Part shown: piece by piece, positions 6,072-48,536 of the stretch
Layout of the letters: each line of letters begins with the position of its first letter
Position numbering within the stretch: position 1 is the first letter of the stretch
Origin: a virus
Reading direction: 5' to 3' (one strand)
IMG/VR virus record: IMGVR_UViG_3300027965_000188
Span: 1-49,779 of that record
DNA: 49,779 nucleotides
Position numbers and translations under genes: made by a program
The notes under the pieces: model-generated
What the model was told of the DNA's origin: nothing
Seen by the model: the letters and a program-made list of their open reading frames with translations, nothing else
Database searches by the model: none

Positions 6072-6833
6072 ATGGCTAAGATACCCAAGGGTGTTCGGGA
6101 GTATTTCAAAAAGGAGGGCCGGCGGGGCGGACTAAAGAGTGCGGTAGCCCGCATGGAGAAGCTGACGCCGGAGCAGAGAAGCGAGTACGCGCGGAAGGCG
6201 GCAAAAGCGAGGTGGGCGAAAACGGCAGCCAAGGGCGTCGTGATCGTGGCGCTTTTGCTATTGCCCTTAAAGGCGGTCGCCCAGGTCGGTCCGTGTTGGG
6301 GCCAACTTATCCCACAGCGGACGCTCGGAACGGCGGTATGTGAGAATCCGCGGCCGGTCTGCCTGACCGATCCTAACGGGCAATCCGGCCGTTGGGTGTG
6401 GCAATGCGGCGAAGATCGAAGACAAGTGGAACGGCCAACAATACCCACGACTTCGACCGATTCCAGTATTCCGATGAGAGTCCGTCCGCCGACCTTCAAC
6501 GATCCGATCGACACGATGATTAAACTGCGGCAGCTTCGGCAGCTGCAGTTACAGAATCAGCAAATGAGCCGCCAATTGAGCGCCCCCGAGCTCACCCCGG
6601 CGCCTTCGGCTCCTGAGCCGGAGAAACCTGCGGCAGCGCTCACGCCGGAAGCCAAGAAGGCTTTTCAGTCGCTTTACGCCTGCGGGGTACTGGACGGCAT
6701 GCTGACAGAGGCGAAGGTCCTCGAAAAGCCGGATATGGCCCGCGTTGTCGAAGAAGCGATGAAGGGGACGAACTGCGAAGCCGTAAGAAGACTGGTGGGC
6801 TTCGAGTCGCCGCTGGCACCCGAAAAGCCGTAA
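6072..6833 (+). CDS. Gly-Gly-motif protein fused to an exported/membrane domain
   Basis: Predicted 253 residues from the ATG at 6072; an upstream in-frame ATG at 6003 lies inside the operator and is less likely. Residues 16-48 (GRRGGLKSAVA, then LTPEQRSEYARKAAKARW) match the small motif family also found in the genes at 27351 and 28186. Residues 55-70 (GVVIVALLLLPLKAVAQ) look like a signal or membrane segment, followed by a Cys-containing, Pro-rich exported region. The fusion is odd because the DNA-binding-like motif would lie inside and the rest outside. An internal GTG near 6239 could start a separate exported protein. Confidence 0.6.
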   Translation: MAKIPKGVREYFKKEGRRGGLKSAVARMEKLTPEQRSEYARKAAKARWAKTAAKGVVIVALLLLPLKAVAQVGPCWGQLIPQRTLGTAVCENPRPVCLTDPNGQSGRWVWQCGEDRRQVERPTIPTTSTDSSIPMRVRPPTFNDPIDTMIKLRQLRQLQLQNQQMSRQLSAPELTPAPSAPEPEKPAAALTPEAKKAFQSLYACGVLDGMLTEAKVLEKPDMARVVEEAMKGTNCEAVRRLVGFESPLAPEKP

Positions 6834-12017: not shown

Positions 12018-12093
12018 GAGACCCTAGCTCAGTGGTTAGAGCGCCTGGCTATTAACCAGGAGGTCAGCGGTTCGAATCCGTTGGATCTCGCCA
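12018..12093 (+). tRNA. tRNA-Asn with anticodon ATT (A34)
   Basis: A full cloverleaf folds with standard spacing: acceptor GAGACCC/GGATCTC (one C.A mismatch at 5-68), D arm GCTC/GAGC, anticodon stem CCTGG/CCAGG with loop CTATTAA (anticodon ATT at 12051-12053), T arm AGCGG-TTCGAAT-CCGTT, discriminator G73 and encoded CCA (12091-12093). U35, U36 and G73 fit asparagine identity. A34 instead of the usual G34 is unusual in bacteria. The 12094-12305 stretch after it shows no gene. Confidence 0.88.
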
Positions 12094-14203: not shown

Positions 14204-14833
14204 ATGCGGAAATTTCTGTTCTTTTTGGCTGTGCCGTGCGCCGCGTCCACGATTACCTATGACATTCAGGAAAACCTGCCACTTACATCGCTGGCCTTTC
14301 CTGCGAGCTTTTCTATTCCGGTGCCCGAGTTCAACGGCAGCTTGCCGAGCATGGACTGGTCGCTAAACGCCACGTTCTGGGTTCACGAAGGCATCAACGA
14401 TATGTACATGACTCCGGGCATCCCCTACACTGCATCGCTCGAATTGGGCATCGCGTCCGACCCGTTGGGATTGAGCAACCAGACAGGCTACAGCTTCTCG
14501 GGTGTGACGACGGGCCTGCATCAAATCAGCATGGGAGGCGGGGCCGGGATAGATTCAGTCAGCCTGTCCGGGACCGCTCCAGATCCGTCAGTGTTCGAGG
14601 GAACCGGCACGTTTGCGATTCCGCTGGTGCTGTCGAACCAATCGTGGGCGACCAACGGCGTGGTAGCGGCGATCACCACCGTCTACGGAAGCGTGGACCT
14701 GCAATTGAACTACGATCCTGTTGATCCGGTCCCCGAGCCGCGCTGGTTGGCGCTCACTTTGCTTGTGCCCTTTGCGTGGCGGCTCAGATCGTCTGGACGG
14801 CCGAAGTCGCCAACACCTTTCCAGAACTGTTGA
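14204..14833 (+). CDS. Exported protein with PEP-CTERM-type sorting signal
   Basis: Predicted 209 residues; ATG preceded by AGAGAGGAAATT. Signal peptide MRKFLFFLAVPCAAS, a beta-rich Ser/Thr/Gly body, and at 176-196 VPEPR, a hydrophobic stretch (WLALTLLVPFAW) and RLRS: the three-part PEP-CTERM signal recognised by host exosortases in exopolysaccharide-producing bacteria. The tail then runs 13 residues further than usual, perhaps because the stop lies inside the overlapping opposite-strand gene (14784-14833). It is a plus-strand gene in a minus-strand fibre region, as expected of a moron. No exosortase is encoded here, so sorting would need the host. Confidence 0.65.
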   Translation: MRKFLFFLAVPCAASTITYDIQENLPLTSLAFPASFSIPVPEFNGSLPSMDWSLNATFWVHEGINDMYMTPGIPYTASLELGIASDPLGLSNQTGYSFSGVTTGLHQISMGGGAGIDSVSLSGTAPDPSVFEGTGTFAIPLVLSNQSWATNGVVAAITTVYGSVDLQLNYDPVDPVPEPRWLALTLLVPFAWRLRSSGRPKSPTPFQNC

Positions 14834-17800
14834 CGTAAACCAGCCGGTAGTAAATCGTCCCGATCTGTCGATCAGCCGGAATGGTGCAGGAATTAGTGCT
14901 GCAGGCGACGGTAAACCATGTAGTCTGCGGCGCGACTCCGTTTGTGTCGAACACCAGCGGCGAATAAGCGTATTGCACGTACGCGGCTGTGGCGTTGGTC
15001 ACGTCCGACAGTTTCATATTCACCACCGGAGTCATTGGCGCATTGATGCCGCCGCCCGAGGCAGGGAATACGTAAGCCCGGAACGCACCAGGGTCGCATG
15101 TCATCGAGTCGGACGCTGTTCCCGGCGATAGCGTTGTGACCGAAATGCCAGACCATGTTCCGTAGTAGCGATAGATCGGCTGGCCGGTCAGCAGGTAGGG
15201 CGAGAGATTCGCCGTGCAGGTCTCGGTGTTGTCTCCATAAAACTGGATTCCCAACAGGTTGCCATAGCTGGACGTGCGCGCCATTGTCTCGAAATACGGC
15301 CCGTAATCCGGGCTTGCCAGAGACGGCTGAAACAAAAGTCCGCTGGTGCCGAGGTACTTCACAAGCAGATTTGCATGTGCCGTAGCTACCCAATCCTGGA
15401 ACGTGTTGGCGTAGTCCCAGTGCGGATTAATGAAGGCTTGCCCCGACAGATCCGGCGTGGAGATCGAGCGCGTGTAATTAGTGGCCGTGTACGTGTTGCT
15501 GGCGCTCAAGCCTGTGCGGTCGTAGTAATCCGGCACCATGCAGCAGCCCGTGAGCGCTGAGCCGTACTGCCGGGACGCCGCCGCGCGCTCCAGGTAAGCC
15601 GTGTTGATAGCCGCGTAGAAATATCGCGGACCAACTTCACTGTTGGTCGCCCAGGTATGGGAGCCGCGAACGTAAGAATTGTACGGCACGATCAGAGCGG
15701 TTCCACCTGTAGACGCCGTGAAGTTAGGAATTTGGCGTATCAGTCCTGGATTAAATCCCACTCCTGCCGCATTGAAATCCGACACATCGAAGTCGTAAGC
15801 GAACGAGACGCCGTCCGCAGCCGTTCCCGAACCGCTAATGGTGAACGTCATCCCGCGCTTGGCGCTGAAATTTATGGCCGGCGACAGTTGCGTGTGCGAG
15901 TAATCGGAGCTGTTGACCTGAATGCCATGCAGATCCGTGCTAATTGAATTGGTGCTGTTATCCTGCCAGGTCAGCGTCCCGCTAGAGGGGTTTGCTGAAA
16001 ACGTGGAGTTTGCCAGATCGACTACGAGATGCGCAGAATCTGGAATCGACAGGACATAGAAGAATCCATCACAATTCCCGCCGCTCGATCCGGTGACTTT
16101 TAGACGAGTGTTTCCAGGGAACCGGTTCCGCACGCCATGATCAGAGAAAGTGATCGTGTTTCCAACGCACGACACAACAGTAGCCGGATAACCAACTTCC
16201 GCGAAGTCCAGAGACACCCCCTCGGTTTCCACCATCAGGGGCAGCGTAAGATTCATGTAGGGCAGAATATCGGTGCGGAGTTCCGTGTTGAGTAGTGATT
16301 GCTGCACGTCGCCGAGGTCAATACGTCCCGGCAGGAATTGGCCGTTCGGGTTCCAATAGGCTTCGCAGTCGTCGGCCATGTTTCGCGAAGGACTTCCGGC
16401 GTACACGTTTCCGCACCAGCTCGGAACAACTCCCGCACCGCTAAATCCAGTCGGAGGCCAACCCATCAGCGGGCCGCCAGCCGCAAGGTGCCAGCCGCGC
16501 ATTTGATAAAACGTGTTGTACGTGTTGTATAACGTCCACGGTCCACCGGTTGGCGGCTGATTCAGGTTCGTGTCGAAAACCAGCACGGCATAAGGTTCGA
16601 GCGTGGCTGTTGACGATGCGTTTCCGGTGCATGAACTGCCCACCGTGAAAGTCCAACTCGTTCCGCCAGGACCGTGGAATAGCGGCGTCCCGGTGGAGGC
16701 ATTGTAATTCAGAACGCTGGCGCAAGGACCCGTGTCGCCGTGAATCAGGAACGTATTTGCGCCGCCAATTGAGCACCCAGGAGAACACGTCACGGTAGCC
16801 GTCGTGCCACTCACCGAAATGCTTTGCAGTTGCGATCCGTTTCCGGGTTGCAGGCCGCCAAGTCCGACGCCCTCCAAGGGAGCGTAGCCCCATTTGTTGA
16901 GCACTTCGTCGGTGACAGAAATTGCCGTCGCGCACGTTTGGTATTGCTGCATGTAATACTGCCATGCAGGGGTACTGTAGCCGGGTCCAGGCCCAAGCGA
17001 CATGACGCCGAGCTGCGACGATCCGCCAGCCCAGTTGTCGCCGATCAGGTGAACCTTTAGGCCGTACGTGGCTGCGGTATTGCAGATCGGAGTGACATCG
17101 GCATTGACGTTCGTGTGGAAGGTTGGCTCAACCGTTCCCACTGACGGCGGGGAAATTATGCTGTGCTCCATCGCGGTGAAGCCGGAGGCTATGAAATCTT
17201 TCCCGAACTGTGAAGGCTTGTAGATCGTCCAGGTTGAATCCGAATTAGCCATGTAATCGGAGTAGAACTGGCTGATGTGGGTTGTCGATGTGCTTGGGTT
17301 GAAGGCCGTCAGAATTGTGCCGGTTTTCGATACGTGCGGCAGCCCGTCCTGTGGCAGAACGAGGATGTACATGGGCCGCGTCAAACCGCTCACGGAGTCG
17401 GTTGTGGTGACTGCGGCGAATCCCACTGAAGCCGCCGTGAACGTACAACTAGACTGGGTGACCGACGAAGTGCTTGGCGCCCCGCAGGTAAGCGTGGCGC
17501 TGGTGGTCGAACTATCGGTGTTGGTCACGTTCCCGGTCAAGGTCACGGAAGTGGGATAGTGACACGTTGCGGTATTCGTGACGCACAAGAACGCCTCTCG
17601 CGGCGCGATACGCAGATCGGAGGCGACAACCGGATTGGCAAACGTGATCGTTTGTTCCCACGCTCCCATGTCGCTCCAGACAGCGTTCAAGCAACCGCTG
17701 CAATTTGGGCCGTCCACGCGCAGCAAGACTTGATGGGCGATGTTTTGAAAGTTCTGTGTCGGGAGAAAGACCGAGGTTGAAGCACTGGTGAACGCCAAGG

Positions 17801-18902
17801 AAGTAACGGCAGATTGACCATCGACAAATAGGGTCGCGGTTTTACTGGGAGTGCCGGTGTTAGGCGACACCGTCGCGGTGATTCCCCATTGACCGAGCCA
17901 ATTTCCATTGCTCGGCATTACGGCGTACTCCGCCCCTGATATGCCGATGACAGAATCGGTAAGGACGGTATAGCCGACGCCTGCCGTTACTGGATCGAGC
18001 GCGTGGTTCCAGCTGGCTCCTAGAAAGATCGCTTCCCCGGTCTGTGCCACAGGGATTGGAGCGGCTTGTATCTTGCCACTCCCGCCTGTCGTCAGCGCGT
18101 CTCCGTCAATCGGCGATGCAGCAATATTTGTCGCTTTGAAGCTAAAAATCTGTGCGTTGCTAGTTTCGTTGGGCGAATAATGCACCGTGATCGCGTCTGA
18201 TCCGCTGCCGCCGTTGCCAGTGCCTACGCACCATTGGGACGGATAATAGTTACCGCCCGAGCCAGCACGAAATGTCCCGCAACTCCACGTCGCCCCGCCC
18301 ACGTTCGTGACCGTGATACTCGTGGCAGTGCCCATGACGGCGTAAACCACCAGCGTATCGGTCGAGGCCGACGAGAACGTATTCGTCGCCATTGACGCAC
18401 CGGGGCTGGCCGCGCTTTTGACCGCGACGGCTTGAGACACCATCGACGTTCCTGAGGTTTTCAGGCTGAAGACATTCGCGCCCCAGTTGATATTGAACCC
18501 TACCGTCATGGTGGGCGCCGGACCATTCACCGCCGTAGTGGTGGTGGCAGGGCTGGTCTGCTGAGGCAGCGGCTCGGCAACGCTAAACGCTACCGCCGGA
18601 CTGGTGGCAAGGACGTTGTTCGCTACACCGCGTGCAATGGCAACGATGCTGTGCGTGCCGTTCGATGCATAGTACGGGTTCCAGACACACGGCCATATCC
18701 CGCCCGCACGGCTGATGCATGCCAGCTCGCCGTCCACGTCGTATTCGACCGCCGCACTCGCAGGCAGACTGACAGCCGACGATAGAAACGTAAACGAAGT
18801 GCCGGTGAGCGACTGGCTCGCGGTGGGAGCCGTCATTGTGATGCTCTGCGCCGAAGCGGCCGCCCCTAAGAGGATGAGAATTGCTGAAAGTCTGGTTATC
18901 AT
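14784..18902 (-). CDS. Giant (1372-residue) exported fibre-like protein
   Basis: Signal peptide MITRLSAILILLGAAASAQS, then an Ig-like beta domain (ITMTAPTASQSLTG...YDVDGELACIS, ~20-105), a beta-sandwich domain like one in its upstream neighbours, another Ig-like repeat (DLRIAPREAFLCVTNTATC), and a long central region rich in aromatic and Asn residues that could be an enzymatic (for example carbohydrate-active) domain, though I see no certain catalytic motif. The C terminus is again Ig-like. The start overlaps the previous stop (ATGA). Likely a receptor-binding fibre or a secreted adhesin; a secreted enzyme is the alternative. Confidence 0.7.
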   Translation of the reverse strand: MITRLSAILILLGAAASAQSITMTAPTASQSLTGTSFTFLSSAVSLPASAAVEYDVDGELACISRAGGIWPCVWNPYYASNGTHSIVAIARGVANNVLATSPAVAFSVAEPLPQQTSPATTTTAVNGPAPTMTVGFNINWGANVFSLKTSGTSMVSQAVAVKSAASPGASMATNTFSSASTDTLVVYAVMGTATSITVTNVGGATWSCGTFRAGSGGNYYPSQWCVGTGNGGSGSDAITVHYSPNETSNAQIFSFKATNIAASPIDGDALTTGGSGKIQAAPIPVAQTGEAIFLGASWNHALDPVTAGVGYTVLTDSVIGISGAEYAVMPSNGNWLGQWGITATVSPNTGTPSKTATLFVDGQSAVTSLAFTSASTSVFLPTQNFQNIAHQVLLRVDGPNCSGCLNAVWSDMGAWEQTITFANPVVASDLRIAPREAFLCVTNTATCHYPTSVTLTGNVTNTDSSTTSATLTCGAPSTSSVTQSSCTFTAASVGFAAVTTTDSVSGLTRPMYILVLPQDGLPHVSKTGTILTAFNPSTSTTHISQFYSDYMANSDSTWTIYKPSQFGKDFIASGFTAMEHSIISPPSVGTVEPTFHTNVNADVTPICNTAATYGLKVHLIGDNWAGGSSQLGVMSLGPGPGYSTPAWQYYMQQYQTCATAISVTDEVLNKWGYAPLEGVGLGGLQPGNGSQLQSISVSGTTATVTCSPGCSIGGANTFLIHGDTGPCASVLNYNASTGTPLFHGPGGTSWTFTVGSSCTGNASSTATLEPYAVLVFDTNLNQPPTGGPWTLYNTYNTFYQMRGWHLAAGGPLMGWPPTGFSGAGVVPSWCGNVYAGSPSRNMADDCEAYWNPNGQFLPGRIDLGDVQQSLLNTELRTDILPYMNLTLPLMVETEGVSLDFAEVGYPATVVSCVGNTITFSDHGVRNRFPGNTRLKVTGSSGGNCDGFFYVLSIPDSAHLVVDLANSTFSANPSSGTLTWQDNSTNSISTDLHGIQVNSSDYSHTQLSPAINFSAKRGMTFTISGSGTAADGVSFAYDFDVSDFNAAGVGFNPGLIRQIPNFTASTGGTALIVPYNSYVRGSHTWATNSEVGPRYFYAAINTAYLERAAASRQYGSALTGCCMVPDYYDRTGLSASNTYTATNYTRSISTPDLSGQAFINPHWDYANTFQDWVATAHANLLVKYLGTSGLLFQPSLASPDYGPYFETMARTSSYGNLLGIQFYGDNTETCTANLSPYLLTGQPIYRYYGTWSGISVTTLSPGTASDSMTCDPGAFRAYVFPASGGGINAPMTPVVNMKLSDVTNATAAYVQYAYSPLVFDTNGVAPQTTWFTVACSTNSCTIPADRQIGTIYYRLVYVNSSGKVLATSAVQTI

Positions 18903-20842
18903 TGAACTCTGACACCGCCTGATAAGGAGATACCGCTGAGCGCCGACGCGCCAGGCGCGGCTACGGCTGGCGTTAGATTGATCGTGCGGTAGTAACTACT
19001 GTACGGGTCTGTTGCCGGGTTGCCTGTTGAATTGATGTAGTCGCCGCTCTGCAAAACTGTCAGTGTCACCGCACCCGACGCCCACGTTGCGCTGGACAGG
19101 TCGAACTCGGGATAATTCGGCAGCATCGACCCCCCGGCCACGCCGCCTGTATTCAGCAAAACCGGTCGATCCGTCAATTTGGCGGCCCAAAACACAGTGA
19201 GATCATAAGGCTGATACATTCCAGTTTGAAGCCAGATGTAGCCCAGGCCCGCCACATACTTTGGCCCGCTTGCGCCGGGAACGTCCACGGCCACGCTCTG
19301 CGGATTGAACAGAAACAAGGTCGGCGCGGTCAGGGTGGAACTCCAATTGGAATTGTTGAGCGGATCGCCGCCCACTGCACCGACATACGCTTGCCACTGC
19401 CCAGACTGCGTGCAATCCACATTGCGAGCGCAGCGGGCCAGATAGTAGCTCGTTTCCAAGTAGTCGGCTGAAACGATGTACAGATACGTGGAATTTCCAT
19501 CCACGTTCGTCGCTCCGGTTGAGGGCTGTTCAAACTGCACAAAAAAGTTTCTTATGAACTTGGTCCCACTAAAAGTCGGCGTGTCGCTCGCTACCGGCAC
19601 GTCGCCGTTTACGTCCGGTGTGATGGAACAGGTTTCAATGCCGGTCGAGTGCGCCGGTTTGCACCAACTGACGCCATGATCGAGCGAGCGCATTAGGAAC
19701 GCCGTTGTGCCTAGCCAAGGTGTGCCGCCCGATGGTGAATCTAGTTGCCGATTGACCCACCAATAATGTGATCCGGTATGATTGGCGTCCACCACGTAAT
19801 TCTGACCGGCAGATTTCCAGCCCAAGTTGTCGGTCCAAGACGAAGGCACATTTGTGCTGCCTGCTGAGCCGTACTCGGTCATGCAGTTGACATCCGAACC
19901 ATTCAAATACCCGGCGCTCAAATATTTAGCGAGGACGATGGACTGACTGCCGCACCCGCCCGGTTGAAACCCGGTTCCATCGTTTGCGGTCGTGTAGGTC
20001 ACGCCGTTGTTGTCCGTGGTGAGATGCGGCGTATCGCCGTGTGAAAAGCGCCCGTTATTCGGTAGGCCGTTCGACCCGTTGTACTGATCGTTGTAGCGCG
20101 TGAACGCACTCACGGAGTTGAGCGTTGGGTAGTTCGCTGCGACTGATCCCGGCAGTTTGAATCCAATCACAAACCCATCCCAGGCAACCGCTCCCGTCGC
20201 GTGTATCTGCGGCCAGTACGTGCCGGTCGAACTCGCCAATTGATAGCTCACTCCTGCGCCGTTGTTAGTGTCCTGAACGATTTGTGTCCAGCCAGACGCC
20301 GCCGTCAGACCAGGAATTGCGCCTTCATTGCCCCACGCGATCAAAAGCTCGTTCGGGTACGTGGCGAGAATCGGGCCGACGTATACGTCACTCGCAGCGG
20401 CAGCCGTTCCGAAATTATGAAAGCCGGTGTCCTCGCACGTGGTCGTCGCATTGCCGCTCCACTCCTGTACGTAGATGCCGGAATAGGTACTGGAGGACCC
20501 AAACGTGGCCGTGAATGTCGTGTTGGCAGTTGATGGGTAGTTGCACAGATGCCACATGGTATAGCTGGCGCTGGGCGATGTATTGCTGATCGGAAATGCG
20601 CCGACCTTTAAGGCCGTCGTCGCCGCTGCGTAGCTGACGCTATTGGAGTCGGTCAGCGTTTGGCTGACGCCGTTCGCACCCACGACTTCAACGGTTATCA
20701 TGTGCCCCGCTGTGACCGAGATGGTACAGGCGCGTGTAGTCACTCCCCCAGCTCCGGTGGATTGAGAGCAGCTATGAACTGGCCCGCTTGACCATTGGCC
20801 GAACAGCGCGGGCGTGAATAATATTGCGATGAGCCATTTCAT
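18899..20842 (-). CDS. Exported fibre-like protein, 647 residues
   Basis: Signal peptide MKWLIAILFTPALFGQ. The first ~210 residues form a beta-sandwich (HMITVEVVGANGVSQTL ... GIYVQEWSGNATTT) related to the 245-residue upstream neighbour. The rest has repeated Gly/Asn/Trp/Tyr-rich strands (THYWWV-like, WFxFE) suggestive of a propeller or other beta fold. ATGA overlaps at both ends tie it to its neighbours. No catalytic residues identified. Confidence 0.65.
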   Translation of the reverse strand: MKWLIAILFTPALFGQWSSGPVHSCSQSTGAGGVTTRACTISVTAGHMITVEVVGANGVSQTLTDSNSVSYAAATTALKVGAFPISNTSPSASYTMWHLCNYPSTANTTFTATFGSSSTYSGIYVQEWSGNATTTCEDTGFHNFGTAAAASDVYVGPILATYPNELLIAWGNEGAIPGLTAASGWTQIVQDTNNGAGVSYQLASSTGTYWPQIHATGAVAWDGFVIGFKLPGSVAANYPTLNSVSAFTRYNDQYNGSNGLPNNGRFSHGDTPHLTTDNNGVTYTTANDGTGFQPGGCGSQSIVLAKYLSAGYLNGSDVNCMTEYGSAGSTNVPSSWTDNLGWKSAGQNYVVDANHTGSHYWWVNRQLDSPSGGTPWLGTTAFLMRSLDHGVSWCKPAHSTGIETCSITPDVNGDVPVASDTPTFSGTKFIRNFFVQFEQPSTGATNVDGNSTYLYIVSADYLETSYYLARCARNVDCTQSGQWQAYVGAVGGDPLNNSNWSSTLTAPTLFLFNPQSVAVDVPGASGPKYVAGLGYIWLQTGMYQPYDLTVFWAAKLTDRPVLLNTGGVAGGSMLPNYPEFDLSSATWASGAVTLTVLQSGDYINSTGNPATDPYSSYYRTINLTPAVAAPGASALSGISLSGGVRVQ

Positions 20843-21576
20843 TGGACGGCGATACCAAACACCGAGGGATTCGCGACTACGTTGGTGGCCGGGGTGTACG
20901 GCATACTCGTTATGTAGCTGGCGATGCTGTTATTCGACGCAAAGGTCCCACACCCCATCGAATCGACCGTGCCACTTGTTGGATCGTCCATCGTGCCGAC
21001 AACCGCGCCGATGTTAGTCCCATTCACGTATTGAACTTCTGCCTGCTTCGCAAACGAGGCGCCACTGATGGAGTAAACCCCACCTGTACCGACAGCGCCC
21101 ATCGCGCAAAATCCAGTGAGATGGTCATGATTCGTCGCTGTCGTGATGTTGGTGCTCAGCGTGGTTCCAGCGGTAGTATTGTTGCGACCGGTGGCGTCGT
21201 TGGACGTTTGCGTGTTGGCTATCGCATATACCGCCACACAAATCGACATGAAGGCCCCGGTCTCGGAAGCGGACCATTGGTGTCCGGTCCCCACCGTGTC
21301 GCCGTTGAGTGTAGACCAGTAAGTAAAGGTCACGCCCACGTTGGACCCGGCTGTATTCGCCGACTGACCGTGGTTGGTGTTTTTGTTGTCAACAATAGGG
21401 GGAGGGCTGGCCACGCCCGCGTAATAAGTAACTGCTACCACCCAGTACGTTGCGCCCGTCGTGTCCACTGCCGTAGATGTCACGGAATTAGCCGACCCCG
21501 CATCGCAGTGGTAGTACGGAAACGTCGTAGCGCACATCGGCAGCGCCAAGAGCGCAAGCAGAATCAGTCGCCGCAT
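20839..21576 (-). CDS. Exported beta-sandwich protein, 245 residues
   Basis: ATG 21576 preferred, with GAGGT eight bases upstream; GTG 21582 is possible. Signal peptide MRRLILLALLALPMCAT. The mature part is a single beta domain (TYWVVAVTYYAGVASPPP ... TYWSTLNGDTVGTGH) similar to the N-terminal domain of the following 647-residue protein, suggesting duplication. Likely a fibre accessory or surface protein. Confidence 0.65.
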   Translation of the reverse strand: MRRLILLALLALPMCATTFPYYHCDAGSANSVTSTAVDTTGATYWVVAVTYYAGVASPPPIVDNKNTNHGQSANTAGSNVGVTFTYWSTLNGDTVGTGHQWSASETGAFMSICVAVYAIANTQTSNDATGRNNTTAGTTLSTNITTATNHDHLTGFCAMGAVGTGGVYSISGASFAKQAEVQYVNGTNIGAVVGTMDDPTSGTVDSMGCGTFASNNSIASYITSMPYTPATNVVANPSVFGIAVQ

Positions 21577-21581
21577 GGCCA

Positions 21582-24092
21582 CTACCTCACTACCCGGTAA
21601 TTCAACGTGATCGCGCCGGGGGTAATACTGCTCGCCGTGTTGTTAGCGACGATGAAGTTCACCGTATTGGCGGTCGGGAATTTAATGATCGTGAGCATCC
21701 CGTTTGCGCTGGGAGCATAGCCGGTGACGCCGGTCGGATCGGCGTTGAAGTCAGAAATAATGTCGTCCGTGGTCGCCATCCCAGTGCAGGTTGCGGTCAC
21801 CGTGGACGCCTTGGCACCTGATGCGATAGCGCTGGTGCCGAGCGAAACCGTGCCGCTGCAAATCGTCTGCGTGATCGTCACCGCACCACCGTTATTAAAA
21901 TTACAGTGCAGAAGGTGGTCGGACGCCAATTCATAACAGAACCACTGACCGCTCGCGCCTGTTGGTGACGAACTGCCTTCTGGCCCTGTGATGCCGTGCC
22001 AAGTGCAGGTCGTGCATACGGCGGCAGAACCTTGGTAGTTCGTGCCGTCGAAGGTGAAGTCTTGAATCGTGACGTTGTTCGCACCGACGTCAGGCTGCGA
22101 AGCACCTTTGAACGTCGCCGGAAAAGCCGTGTACGTGCCTGCGCTGGTAGCGCCTTGTACCGTGATAAGCCGGTATGGGCCAGAGCCGTGCGGATTCGTT
22201 GCCGCCAGGGTCGTCGCCGTGCTCGTGCCGGTGAAGGTCACCTGACACACGTTGCTAACGCTAAAGTCGCAGGTTGTCGTGCCGCCTGAATTGAACGTCG
22301 GTGTGGAAGGTGCGGCCCAATTGACAGTTTTTCCGCCAAGTAATGAGCCGTCCGATCCGTTTTGGGTCAGATTGGAATTGCCGAGCGTCGTGCTGGCCGT
22401 GAATATCGGGAACGTATTAGTGGTGCCTGAGCCGCCTATTGTGCCGCCGCCTCCGAACGTAGTCCACGTGTTCGTTGCGTTGCAGCCCTTGAAGGCTGCG
22501 CCTGTGCTGTTAAACTCGATTTGGCCTACTGCGCACGTACCTGGATCTGCTGTATGGTTCGGCAGCCGCACGTCCACGGCATTGTTACTGAAGTCCTGTA
22601 GCCCTGTCGAGTAGGTATTGGCCTGATTGTTATAGACAACCGTTGACGGCAATTGCGCTGCTGTGATTTGGTTCTCTGGGCTGATCGCAATCCACACGCC
22701 GGTCGAGGGACAAGACCCGGAGCAATAGAGCGCTATTAAGCTCGGCTGATGCGGCTGCATCAAAGCGCCGATGGCCGTAGATCCATCGCGTTTTACAATC
22801 GACAGCGGTGTTCCGAGAGAGCAATAGTCGAAGCTCGCAGTCGTAGTAGAAGCCGTATCAACAGACAGGTAAACGTGCATCCCGTTCGTGAGCACGGCAT
22901 TCGCACAGCCTGCAGCCGGGGAGCCAGTATAAGCCGTGGTCCCGTTGGTCGAATTTACGAAATCCCACTTGCCGTCTTGAAAGTCCCCACCCGCTACTGT
23001 ATAAGCGAAATTCGGTCCGAATGTGCAATCGGTTCTGGATGCGCCGGAATTGTCGACGCACGAAGTCGTTGCGCCAGTGCCAGGAATGACGTTGAGTGTT
23101 GAGCGCGGCGTCAGAGATGTTCCGTTGTTTTGAACCGTGGTATATCCACCCCCGCCGCCCCCACCGCAAGTCGATCCATTACACTGAACAGTCCCCGTAC
23201 CTTTGCTGACCAGGTTGAGATTGATATTCGCGTCCGGCCCCGTCGCGGAGATCGTAACCGTCGCGGGGTTTGCCGTGGCCGCGTTGGTCACCGTCACGCT
23301 ATCGACCGCCGACGCAGTGGCGCTCGACACTAAGAACGGATTTCCATTGCCATCCAAAATGGTGGTTACTTGCGGACTCGACAGCGTCGGCCCCGTTGCA
23401 AACACCAGCGAGCCACCCGACCCGGTTTTGGTGGTCATCGCTGAGTAGAGATTCGCGCTTGACGGCGTTGCCAAGAACGTGGCCACGCCCGTGCCTAACC
23501 CCGAAATGCCGCTGTTTATCGGTATTCCAGTTAAGTTGGTTCCAATTCCGCTTGACGGTGTTCCGAGCGCTCCGCCGTTGACAACGAACGCGCCTGCCGT
23601 ACCGACGTTTACCCCCAGTGCCGTAGCGACCCCCGTCCCTAATCCCGAGATCCCGGTGCTGACAGGGATAAGCGGCAAATCTCCCGCTACCAGGGCGCAG
23701 GCCCCAAACGTGGTTGCAGTGCCGCACGTTCCGATGACCTGGTGCGAGGTTTGGGCAGAAGTCGGCGCCACGCCGATGTTGCCGGCCGTCGTGACTGGAG
23801 ATCCGCTTACGGTAAGCCAAGGAATTGATGTAAGGGCCAGTCCTACGCTCGTTACGGAACCGCCCGAGGTCACGCCCACGTTGAACCAATTTCCGCCCCC
23901 CGATGGACACGCATAGAGCGCATTGGGTGTGCTGGTCGTGTTGATATAGAGCGATCGTTGTCCAGGGCAGGGATTCGTCGGTGCGCCTGAGCCGGTAGTG
24001 ACTCTGGCTCCCAAAGGCGGAGCTGGTCCCTGGGCCCGGGCGGCAACGGCAAACAGAAATACAAACAGAATAGAGCGCATGAAATTGCGCAT
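21582..24092 (-). CDS. Phage tail fibre-like protein with signal peptide
   Basis: Predicted 836 residues. Signal peptide MRNFMRSILFVFLFAVAARAQ. The body carries repeats typical of phage tail fibres: GALGTPSSGIGTNLTGIP, two GISGLGTGVAT copies, FLATPSSANLYSAMTT, and SKGTGTVQCNGS, then a Gly-rich linker and a C-terminal beta domain. Repetitive shafts of this kind trimerise in known fibres. The Sec signal on a fibre is unexpected. First of four overlapping fibre genes. Confidence 0.72.
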   Translation of the reverse strand: MRNFMRSILFVFLFAVAARAQGPAPPLGARVTTGSGAPTNPCPGQRSLYINTTSTPNALYACPSGGGNWFNVGVTSGGSVTSVGLALTSIPWLTVSGSPVTTAGNIGVAPTSAQTSHQVIGTCGTATTFGACALVAGDLPLIPVSTGISGLGTGVATALGVNVGTAGAFVVNGGALGTPSSGIGTNLTGIPINSGISGLGTGVATFLATPSSANLYSAMTTKTGSGGSLVFATGPTLSSPQVTTILDGNGNPFLVSSATASAVDSVTVTNAATANPATVTISATGPDANINLNLVSKGTGTVQCNGSTCGGGGGGGYTTVQNNGTSLTPRSTLNVIPGTGATTSCVDNSGASRTDCTFGPNFAYTVAGGDFQDGKWDFVNSTNGTTAYTGSPAAGCANAVLTNGMHVYLSVDTASTTTASFDYCSLGTPLSIVKRDGSTAIGALMQPHQPSLIALYCSGSCPSTGVWIAISPENQITAAQLPSTVVYNNQANTYSTGLQDFSNNAVDVRLPNHTADPGTCAVGQIEFNSTGAAFKGCNATNTWTTFGGGGTIGGSGTTNTFPIFTASTTLGNSNLTQNGSDGSLLGGKTVNWAAPSTPTFNSGGTTTCDFSVSNVCQVTFTGTSTATTLAATNPHGSGPYRLITVQGATSAGTYTAFPATFKGASQPDVGANNVTIQDFTFDGTNYQGSAAVCTTCTWHGITGPEGSSSPTGASGQWFCYELASDHLLHCNFNNGGAVTITQTICSGTVSLGTSAIASGAKASTVTATCTGMATTDDIISDFNADPTGVTGYAPSANGMLTIIKFPTANTVNFIVANNTASSITPGAITLNYRVVR

Positions 24093-46898: not shown

Positions 46899-48536
46899 TT
46901 AGCCGGCGATCCGGCACGCGAATTCCGGCCGGAGAGTCTTCCATCCGCCGAATGCTTCTAAGCGCGTGTAGCGCCGGTTGGTGCGCATGTCGAAGCCGCG
47001 CGTCAGGCGCATGCTGATCCCGACCTTGGGATTAGAGATGCGCTCGGACCAGTCGAGCCCGCCCGGCAGTTCAAGGTTGACGATGGCGAGCGCAAAGGCA
47101 TCGCGGTGGAAAGCGAGCGCCTGGGGCGAGGAAACGCCCGAGATGTTCGCCAGGTTGGCAGCCGCGGTGTTGTAAACAAAGATGGCCGCGTTATTGGCGG
47201 GCGATTGCGTCACGGTCTGGAAGGGGCTGGTGACGTCGATGTTGATGTCGGGCGAGATCGGAATCGTCAGGTTGCCAGATCCATCCGAGGCGGGGCAGTT
47301 GGGTCCCACCACGAACGTCCGGAGCTGCCCGGTGTCCCGATAGGAGATCGGGTTGACGGAGTTGACGCCCGCGACCTTGATGATGTCGCCGGTATTCAGA
47401 ACCTGGGTTGAGGCGGTCCAGCCGCTGGTGATCAGCGAAGAACCGGTCTGGTTCGCGCCGTTAACCACGGGCGTTCCGCCGGCGAGGCCAACGGTAGCGC
47501 GCGAGACGTTCTGATCCATCGACCACTTGAAGCCCAGCGCCTGGCCCATGGTTCCCGAAAGATACTGCTCGGAGATGGTCTTGGGCGGGTTGAAGAGCGT
47601 TGCACCGAATTCGATGGCGGCCGCTTCCATCTCTGGAGAAACCACCAAGGCCCGGAGACTGCCGTAGGGGGCGCCGGAATTGGACAGCGTGACACCGGCA
47701 GCGGTGTAAGCGGTGCGGGTGGTGGGAGTGACGCCGGGCGTCACGTTCAATTGCGCCAGGTTATAGACGTCGGCGTACAGATCGAGGCCTTCGCCGTCGA
47801 TCATGTTCGCGATTCTCTGCACGGCCGGCTCGATGTAGCGCTCTCCGAACCGGTCGATGGTTAGCGTGAGGTCTTGATCTGAGATGTCCAGATCACAGCC
47901 CCACAGGCGGTTGATGGTTACCGGCACGACGGTTTCCCGGATGTCTTCCAGTTGAATGCCGTCGCCGATTCGTCCGCGGAAGCGGACTGGCATGCGGGCG
48001 TTTACGGTGTCGTTTTCGTTGGCAGCGGCCTCGCTAGGGCCGTGTGCGTCCGCTCATTGGGCTGAGCCAGACTTGCTCCCCTTTCGAGGAGGACCAGACT
48101 ATGTCACGATCCGAAGCCTAGGAGGCTTGGGACCCGAAGCGCTTCGAGCTGCTTAGCTCTACTCCCGTTGCGGGATAGTCGTTACACGTTTCTCTTTGGT
48201 GAACCTCGGCCAGGGTTTTAGCCGCCGCACCTTCGTTCATCACTGAGACTTCGCTCGGCGTCGCCATGGCCCAGACACAGAGTTGCATTAACAGCATCGC
48301 CGTTGCACCACCGATGCTGTTACTCTTCCGGGCTGTAGGATTCACCGAATTCACTTCGTTTTTCTCCGCAGGATCTCTCCTGCGTGGGGCTACACTGTTA
48401 ACCCGATTTTGTCGCCAGGAACTGCGAACCTATCATCGAACTCCCTATTAACTTGCTTGGCGAAGACCAGGTTGTTCTCCCACCGCATCAACGATTCTTG
48501 AAGAATCGCGACCGGGTTGAGTAATTCATTTGCCAT
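46899..48536 (-). CDS. Major capsid (P22-type coat) protein, split by a group I intron
   Basis: Join of exon 1 (48401-48536) and exon 2 (46899-48010); ATG 48536 preceded by AAAGGA. Exon 1 gives 45 codons plus one base, starting MANELLNPVAILQESLMRWE and ending VPGDKIG. Exon 2 completes a Tyr codon and continues TVNARMPVRFRGRIGDG, the conserved beginning of P22-type coat proteins. Total 415 residues, the usual length. Later landmarks (VPVTINRLWGCDLDISDQDL, TLTIDRFGERYIEPAVQ) confirm the family. Unspliced, the mRNA would stop three codons into the intron. The capsid protein should self-assemble on the scaffold encoded upstream. Confidence 0.92.
48011..48400 (-). ncRNA. Group I self-splicing intron (td-like, IA type), no endonuclease
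   Basis: 390 nt, numbered from 48400. P1: exon GGGU pairs with GCCC (11-14), with the U.G pair at the 5' splice site. P2: CGCAGGA/TCCTGCG with GAGA loop (17-34). P5/P6-type 11-bp stem at 79-89/102-112. P7: GACTAT (221-226) with ATAGTC (299-304), and the block AACGACTATCCCG...GGGAGTAG is like the T4 td core. P7.1 CCCG/CGGG, P7.2 GAGCT/AGCTC, P8 AAGCCT/AGGCTT, P9 with GAAA loop (310-325). The intron ends in G (390). P10: GUGU (6-9) pairs with the first four exon-2 bases, ACAC. No endonuclease motif occurs in any frame. Confidence 0.95.

Follow-up and report, generated by a model that had tools for sequence, protein, structure and literature searches.

A predicted self-splicing group I intron of subgroup IA (td-like, bearing P7.1 and P7.2 hairpins) almost certainly interrupts the coat gene of a soil phage, with its insertion point between the first and second bases of the Tyr46 codon. 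The gene lies on the minus strand of the DNA analysed here (IMGVR_UViG_3300027965_000188, positions 1-49,779; from now on, the window, 49,779 nucleotides in length), and group I introns are also found, at the same and at other positions, in the coat genes of related viruses.

The interrupted gene and the anatomy of its intron

The limits of the exons and of the 390-base insert (48536-48401, 48400-48011 and 48010-46899) are exactly those of the original prediction. The main features are listed below.

48401-48536, minus strand: coat gene exon 1, made of 45 complete codons and the first base of Tyr46; PHROG 283 positions 1-45, E 4.8e-5; aligned without gaps to the intron-free relative L007
48011-48400, minus strand: group I intron of 390 nt with subgroup IA-like layout, in which no endonuclease gene is recognised (longest start-to-stop open reading frame without family match); RF00028, 44.6 bits; junctions confirmed by the empty site of L007
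46899-48010, minus strand: coat gene exon 2, stop codon included; PHROG 283 positions 65-383, E 1.3e-54; Pfam PF11651, 98 bits

Both exons match consecutive stretches of PHROG 283 (major head protein), while the match to Pfam P22_CoatProtein (PF11651) comes from exon 2, at 98 bits with a cut-off of 24; by sequence classification, the interrupted gene is a P22-type coat protein gene. The earlier description of a frame that stops after codon 45 and resumes 390 bases later holds for the interruption and for its length, whereas the stop itself is displaced, as the unspliced frame runs through three further codons (L-T-V) before the TAG at 48392-48390. Joining of the exons yields a 415-aa frame reading ...GDKIG-Y-TVNARMPVRFRGR..., which is the anticipated product, KIG-Y-TVNARMPVRFRGR, in the register of the family.

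The elements of the predicted fold are, in the 5' to 3' direction of the intron:

48401-48404, minus strand: P1 5' strand, GGGU, the last base being the U of the splice-site U.G pair
48392-48395, minus strand: P10 strand, GUGU, within the guide; pairs with the 3' exon ACAC (48010-48007)
48387-48390, minus strand: P1 3' strand (internal guide), GCCC
48367-48384, minus strand: P2 hairpin, CGCAGGA-GAGA-UCCUGCG
48352-48358, minus strand: P3 5' strand, CGAAGUG
48290-48321, minus strand: extra hairpin in the P5 loop, missing from the 270-nt same-site intron of L005
48176-48180, minus strand: P7 5' strand, GACUA
48163-48175, minus strand: P7.1 hairpin, UCCCG-CAA-CGGGA
48146-48159, minus strand: P7.2 hairpin, GAGCU-AAGC-AGCUC
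48135-48141, minus strand: P3 3' strand, CGCUUCG
48108-48134, minus strand: P8
48097-48101, minus strand: P7 3' strand, UAGUC
48076-48091, minus strand: P9 hairpin, GAAA tetraloop
48026-48069, minus strand: two more 3'-terminal hairpins (P9.1/P9.2-like)
48011, minus strand: terminal G of the intron, as in all 18 introns of the set described below

The P1 U.G pair, P10, the tetraloop-capped P2 (GAGA) and P9 (GAAA) stems, P7 and the terminal G had all been recognised beforehand, and all are present as claimed, although the P10 pairing is of 4 bp only and is weak or absent in several relatives. The layout, in which hairpins P7.1 and P7.2 separate P7 from P3, is that of subgroup IA; the two hairpins presumably point to IA2, the class of T4 td, rather than to another of the IA classes. 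The fold is more stable than those of dinucleotide shuffles (z −2.76, with none of 100 shuffles as good). The P5-loop hairpin (about 48289-48322) is an inverted repeat, which also gives a self-match of 82% on the plus strand.

The Rfam group I model (RF00028) scores 44.6 bits over 48409-48075, all of its 253 positions being matched, and E is 7.6e-12 in a search of the record for RF00028 alone; this agrees with the group I assignment of the original prediction, though the score is below the curated Rfam cut-off of 50 bits. The default Rfam scan of the window lists no intron, and a filtered E-value scan of the whole window returned no intron match, because of the sub-threshold score and of the speed filters. 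Higher scores are obtained with introns at the same site in L109 (64 bits) and in L005 (88.7 bits); the low value of the window intron is probably due in part to extra sequence in the P5 loop and in the P6 region, which the L005 intron does not contain.

Independent information on the junctions comes from intron-free genes. The coat protein of L007, 65% identical, reads AKTGYTVNARLPVRFRGR and aligns across the predicted junction without gaps in both DNA and protein; the junctions are likewise ungapped in two close pairs, L109 with the intron-free L070, and L071 with L060. The covariance model, the anatomy and the intron-free relatives at the exact predicted junction converge in identifying the insert as a group I intron.

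Two other features of the window were recorded. At 12018-12093 a tRNA Asn with anticodon AUU is predicted, which is unusual in that bacterial Asn tRNAs normally use GUU, and four large adjacent minus-strand frames (1372, 647, 247 and 836 aa) at 14784-24092 have no PHROG match at 1e-5.

Coat-gene introns in related viruses

Relatives were gathered by scanning IMG/VR with the coat protein itself and with two alignments of it, and splice sites were assigned by requiring a U before the intron, a G at its end and an uninterrupted protein once the exons are joined. In this way 18 group I introns, of which 17 are complete and one is truncated by the end of its contig, were located in the coat genes of 11 distinct viruses, at eight sites. 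The sites, given as positions in the coat coding sequence and numbered as in the window for the clade (L037 and L043 follow their own numbering), are:

site 46: L037 (own numbering)
site 97: L004, L006, L066, L068, L109
site 136: window, L005, L006, L008, L066, L109
site 143: L071
site 153: L004, L006
site 155: L068
site 249: L005
site 1157: L043 (own numbering)

Most insertion sites are in the conserved N-terminal stretch of the gene, and five of the eight fall at coding positions 97-155, i.e. within 58 nt. The extreme case is L006 (1525-4089), with three introns at 97, 136 and 153, within 56 nt of coding sequence, which leave exons of 97, 39, 17 and 1,089 nt. An initial placement of site C after codon 52 was rejected, since the protein alignment then had a gap of one residue, which disappeared when the P1 U.G rule moved the site to codon 51. 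The introns of L037 (2617-2890, position 46, 87.5 bits) and L043 (4005-4258, position 1157, 52.2 bits) are isolated ones, outside the intron-rich clade.

The pairing scheme was also evaluated over the set. In 17 of the 17 complete introns, the P1 3' strand that provides the U.G pair starts within the first 17 nt (shuffled heads: mean 1.0, maximum 5). When P1, P3 and P7 are considered in 16 introns, pairing is seen in 97.3% of cells, as opposed to 74% in shuffled and at most 41% in slid controls, and 64 cells are double-changed versus 18 in the control; the P3 and P7 strands were picked by an anchor rule and best pairing, with L066_B left out of the pair count as the anchor rule failed, so that these counts are biased upward and serve as support rather than as an unbiased test.

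In a tree of 69 coat proteins, from which the incomplete L068 was left out, the group that contains the window is supported and comprises 14 rows; 8 of these bear introns, as opposed to only 2 of the 55 outside the group. Intron-bearing and intron-free genes alternate among close relatives, so that at least six gains or losses are required on the tree. An uninterrupted coat protein is encoded by 63 of the 75 relatives in the second set; a contig scan of genomes returned a sole coat relative, intron-free, in a Candidatus Sabulitectum MAG; and the DNA pattern of the site-B splice junction occurs at seven loci in viral contigs, none of which encodes a coat relative. Fold class, splice sites, empty sites and repeated presence or absence are matters of direct observation in this set. 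A further observation regards L007, in which a divergent coat-like stretch (6072-6533, minus strand; 26% identical to residues 1-117 and 42% to residues 353-390), approximately 2 kb downstream of the coat gene and on the other strand, may represent a second coat-like gene.

In 17 whole records RF00028 matches the coat gene only, and the records of 40 further relatives gave zero RF00028 matches; the coat-only pattern could soften with better models, since most of the records are fragmentary and the sensitivity of RF00028 is incomplete. Four introns (L004_A, L006_B, L008_B and L066_B) encode HNH endonucleases matching PHROG 2255 (phrog_2255; E from 1e-18 to 2e-10). For the window intron no homing endonuclease was detected, its longest start-to-stop frame (48118-48354) having no family match, and the HNH protein of L066, when used as a query, retrieved only itself. 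By taking into account the same-site relatives with HNH genes and the close genes without introns, the coat gene would be a repeated homing target in the phage lineage of the window, whose intron probably derives, as an ORF-less copy, from a mobile one. In the simplest history, introns would have homed into conserved coat sequence, after which some copies would have lost their endonuclease gene.

A reading compatible with this history goes further and proposes that coat introns spread as weapons in competition, with endonucleases attacking the coat genes of co-infecting intron-free relatives and ORF-less copies persisting by protecting the site, as intron endonucleases have been described to act as competition weapons for phages PhiPA3 and PhiKZ (PMC11620839). 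The alternation of intron-bearing and intron-free genes among close relatives, the conserved location of most sites and the HNH frames in four introns are all in line with it; plain homing, however, requires no benefit to the phage, and the proposal is best regarded as tentative. A specialised role of the coat gene as a hotspot, in which packed introns allow alternative splicing that regulates capsid assembly, appears improbable. In that reading, skipping of the 39-nt exon between sites A and B, which stays in frame, would generate a second coat isoform lacking 13 residues near the N-terminus.

Predicted splicing and alternative origins of the insert

Returning to the group I intron of the window, its splicing is the step that we infer from group I chemistry. 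The intron would fold within the late mRNA, and a guanosine held by P7 would attack the bond that follows the U of the P1 U.G pair. The exon so released would then attack after the terminal G, with P10 doing the positioning. Joining of ...AUCGGGU to ACACCGUAAAC... (as DNA, the predicted ligated junction is ...ATCGGGT-ACACCGTAAAC...) would restore the 415-aa coat protein. The capsid gene being among the most highly expressed of phage genes, each coat intron must splice very efficiently, and the window intron presumably does so; it may likewise have reached its site by homing.

Alternatively, the insert could be a decayed remnant that no longer splices, with a shortened coat protein produced from an internal ATG at 47993, which opens a 364-aa frame (the Met of the full-length coat is at 48536). 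An RF00028 score below the Rfam cut-off and a length of 390 nt, greater than that of the ORF-less same-site intron of L005 (270 nt), could be taken as signs of decay. However, every core helix is intact, and exon 1, where no frame damage is seen, maintains residues kept across the clade (e.g. N21, K27, R31, K43 and G45) that would be needless if translation started downstream of it. With these considerations, such a remnant is very unlikely. There is hardly any chance that the insert is some other element (a group II intron, an intein or a random insertion) or an assembly chimera, for which the low Rfam score and nothing else could be invoked, against the RF00028 match, the scores of up to 88.7 bits of same-site relatives and the identical sequence in a second assembly. 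The latter is L003, an 81-kb contig assembled from a different sample, in which 5,878 bp, intron included, are identical to the window; this argues against an artefact of assembly. Among the specific candidates, an intein is ruled out by the in-frame stop codons and a group II intron by the match to the group I model.

Relation to known introns

The predicted intron of the window has in common with that of T4 td, of subgroup IA2, the IA layout, the P7.1 and P7.2 hairpins and the U.G pair at the splice site. The td intron interrupts the thymidylate synthase gene and encodes I-TevI, whereas no endonuclease frame is recognised in the window intron. 

As to the consequences of these observations, a lineage whose detected introns all fall in one gene, that of the coat, at eight sites, and which has intron-free sisters for comparison, makes homing specificity, splicing efficiency, the handling of tiny exons and competitive advantage testable. 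On the practical side, annotation may leave the coat genes of metagenomic phages in fragments, as the window intron escapes the default Rfam threshold.

Capsid-gene group I introns have already been published (PMC3706429, PMC7886860), so that the caution of the original prediction in not claiming the first one was well placed. In LittleE, a Cluster J mycobacteriophage, splicing of the major capsid intron was proven by RT-PCR and protein sequencing, and lactococcal phage Tuc2009 is also cited in the introduction of the same paper (PMC3706429). As in the window, a probable group I intron is found in the major capsid gene of LittleE, with U ending the exon and G ending the intron (PMC3706429); the LittleE capsid is, however, of the HK97 type and its intron of 819 bp carries a LAGLIDADG-like frame, while in the window the coat is of the P22 type, the intron is of 390 nt with no recognised frame, and splicing is predicted. 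In the literature searched, the coverage of which is incomplete, no intron-bearing P22-type coat gene was found.

Several group I introns split the major capsid gene also in Delta and Zeta crAss-like phages, where an MCP gene is in one case divided into five fragments (PMC7886860), but their introns and inteins are in many genes, whereas here, in 17 records, Rfam-detected introns are confined to that for the coat. Twort orf142 and Bastillevirinae have in common with the present set HNH frames, short internal exons and the presence of as many as three introns in one gene, those of Bastillevirinae being IA-linked (PMC11878797). The genes differ, in that orf142 is a tail tube gene, and in Bastillevirinae polymerase, terminase, nucleotide reductase and thymidylate synthase genes are interrupted (PMC11878797). 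The question of why phage introns settle mostly in DNA-metabolism genes was raised in a published study (PMC11878797). Group I introns in capsid genes, one or several, are therefore already known, and what is unusual here is their concentration in one structural gene.
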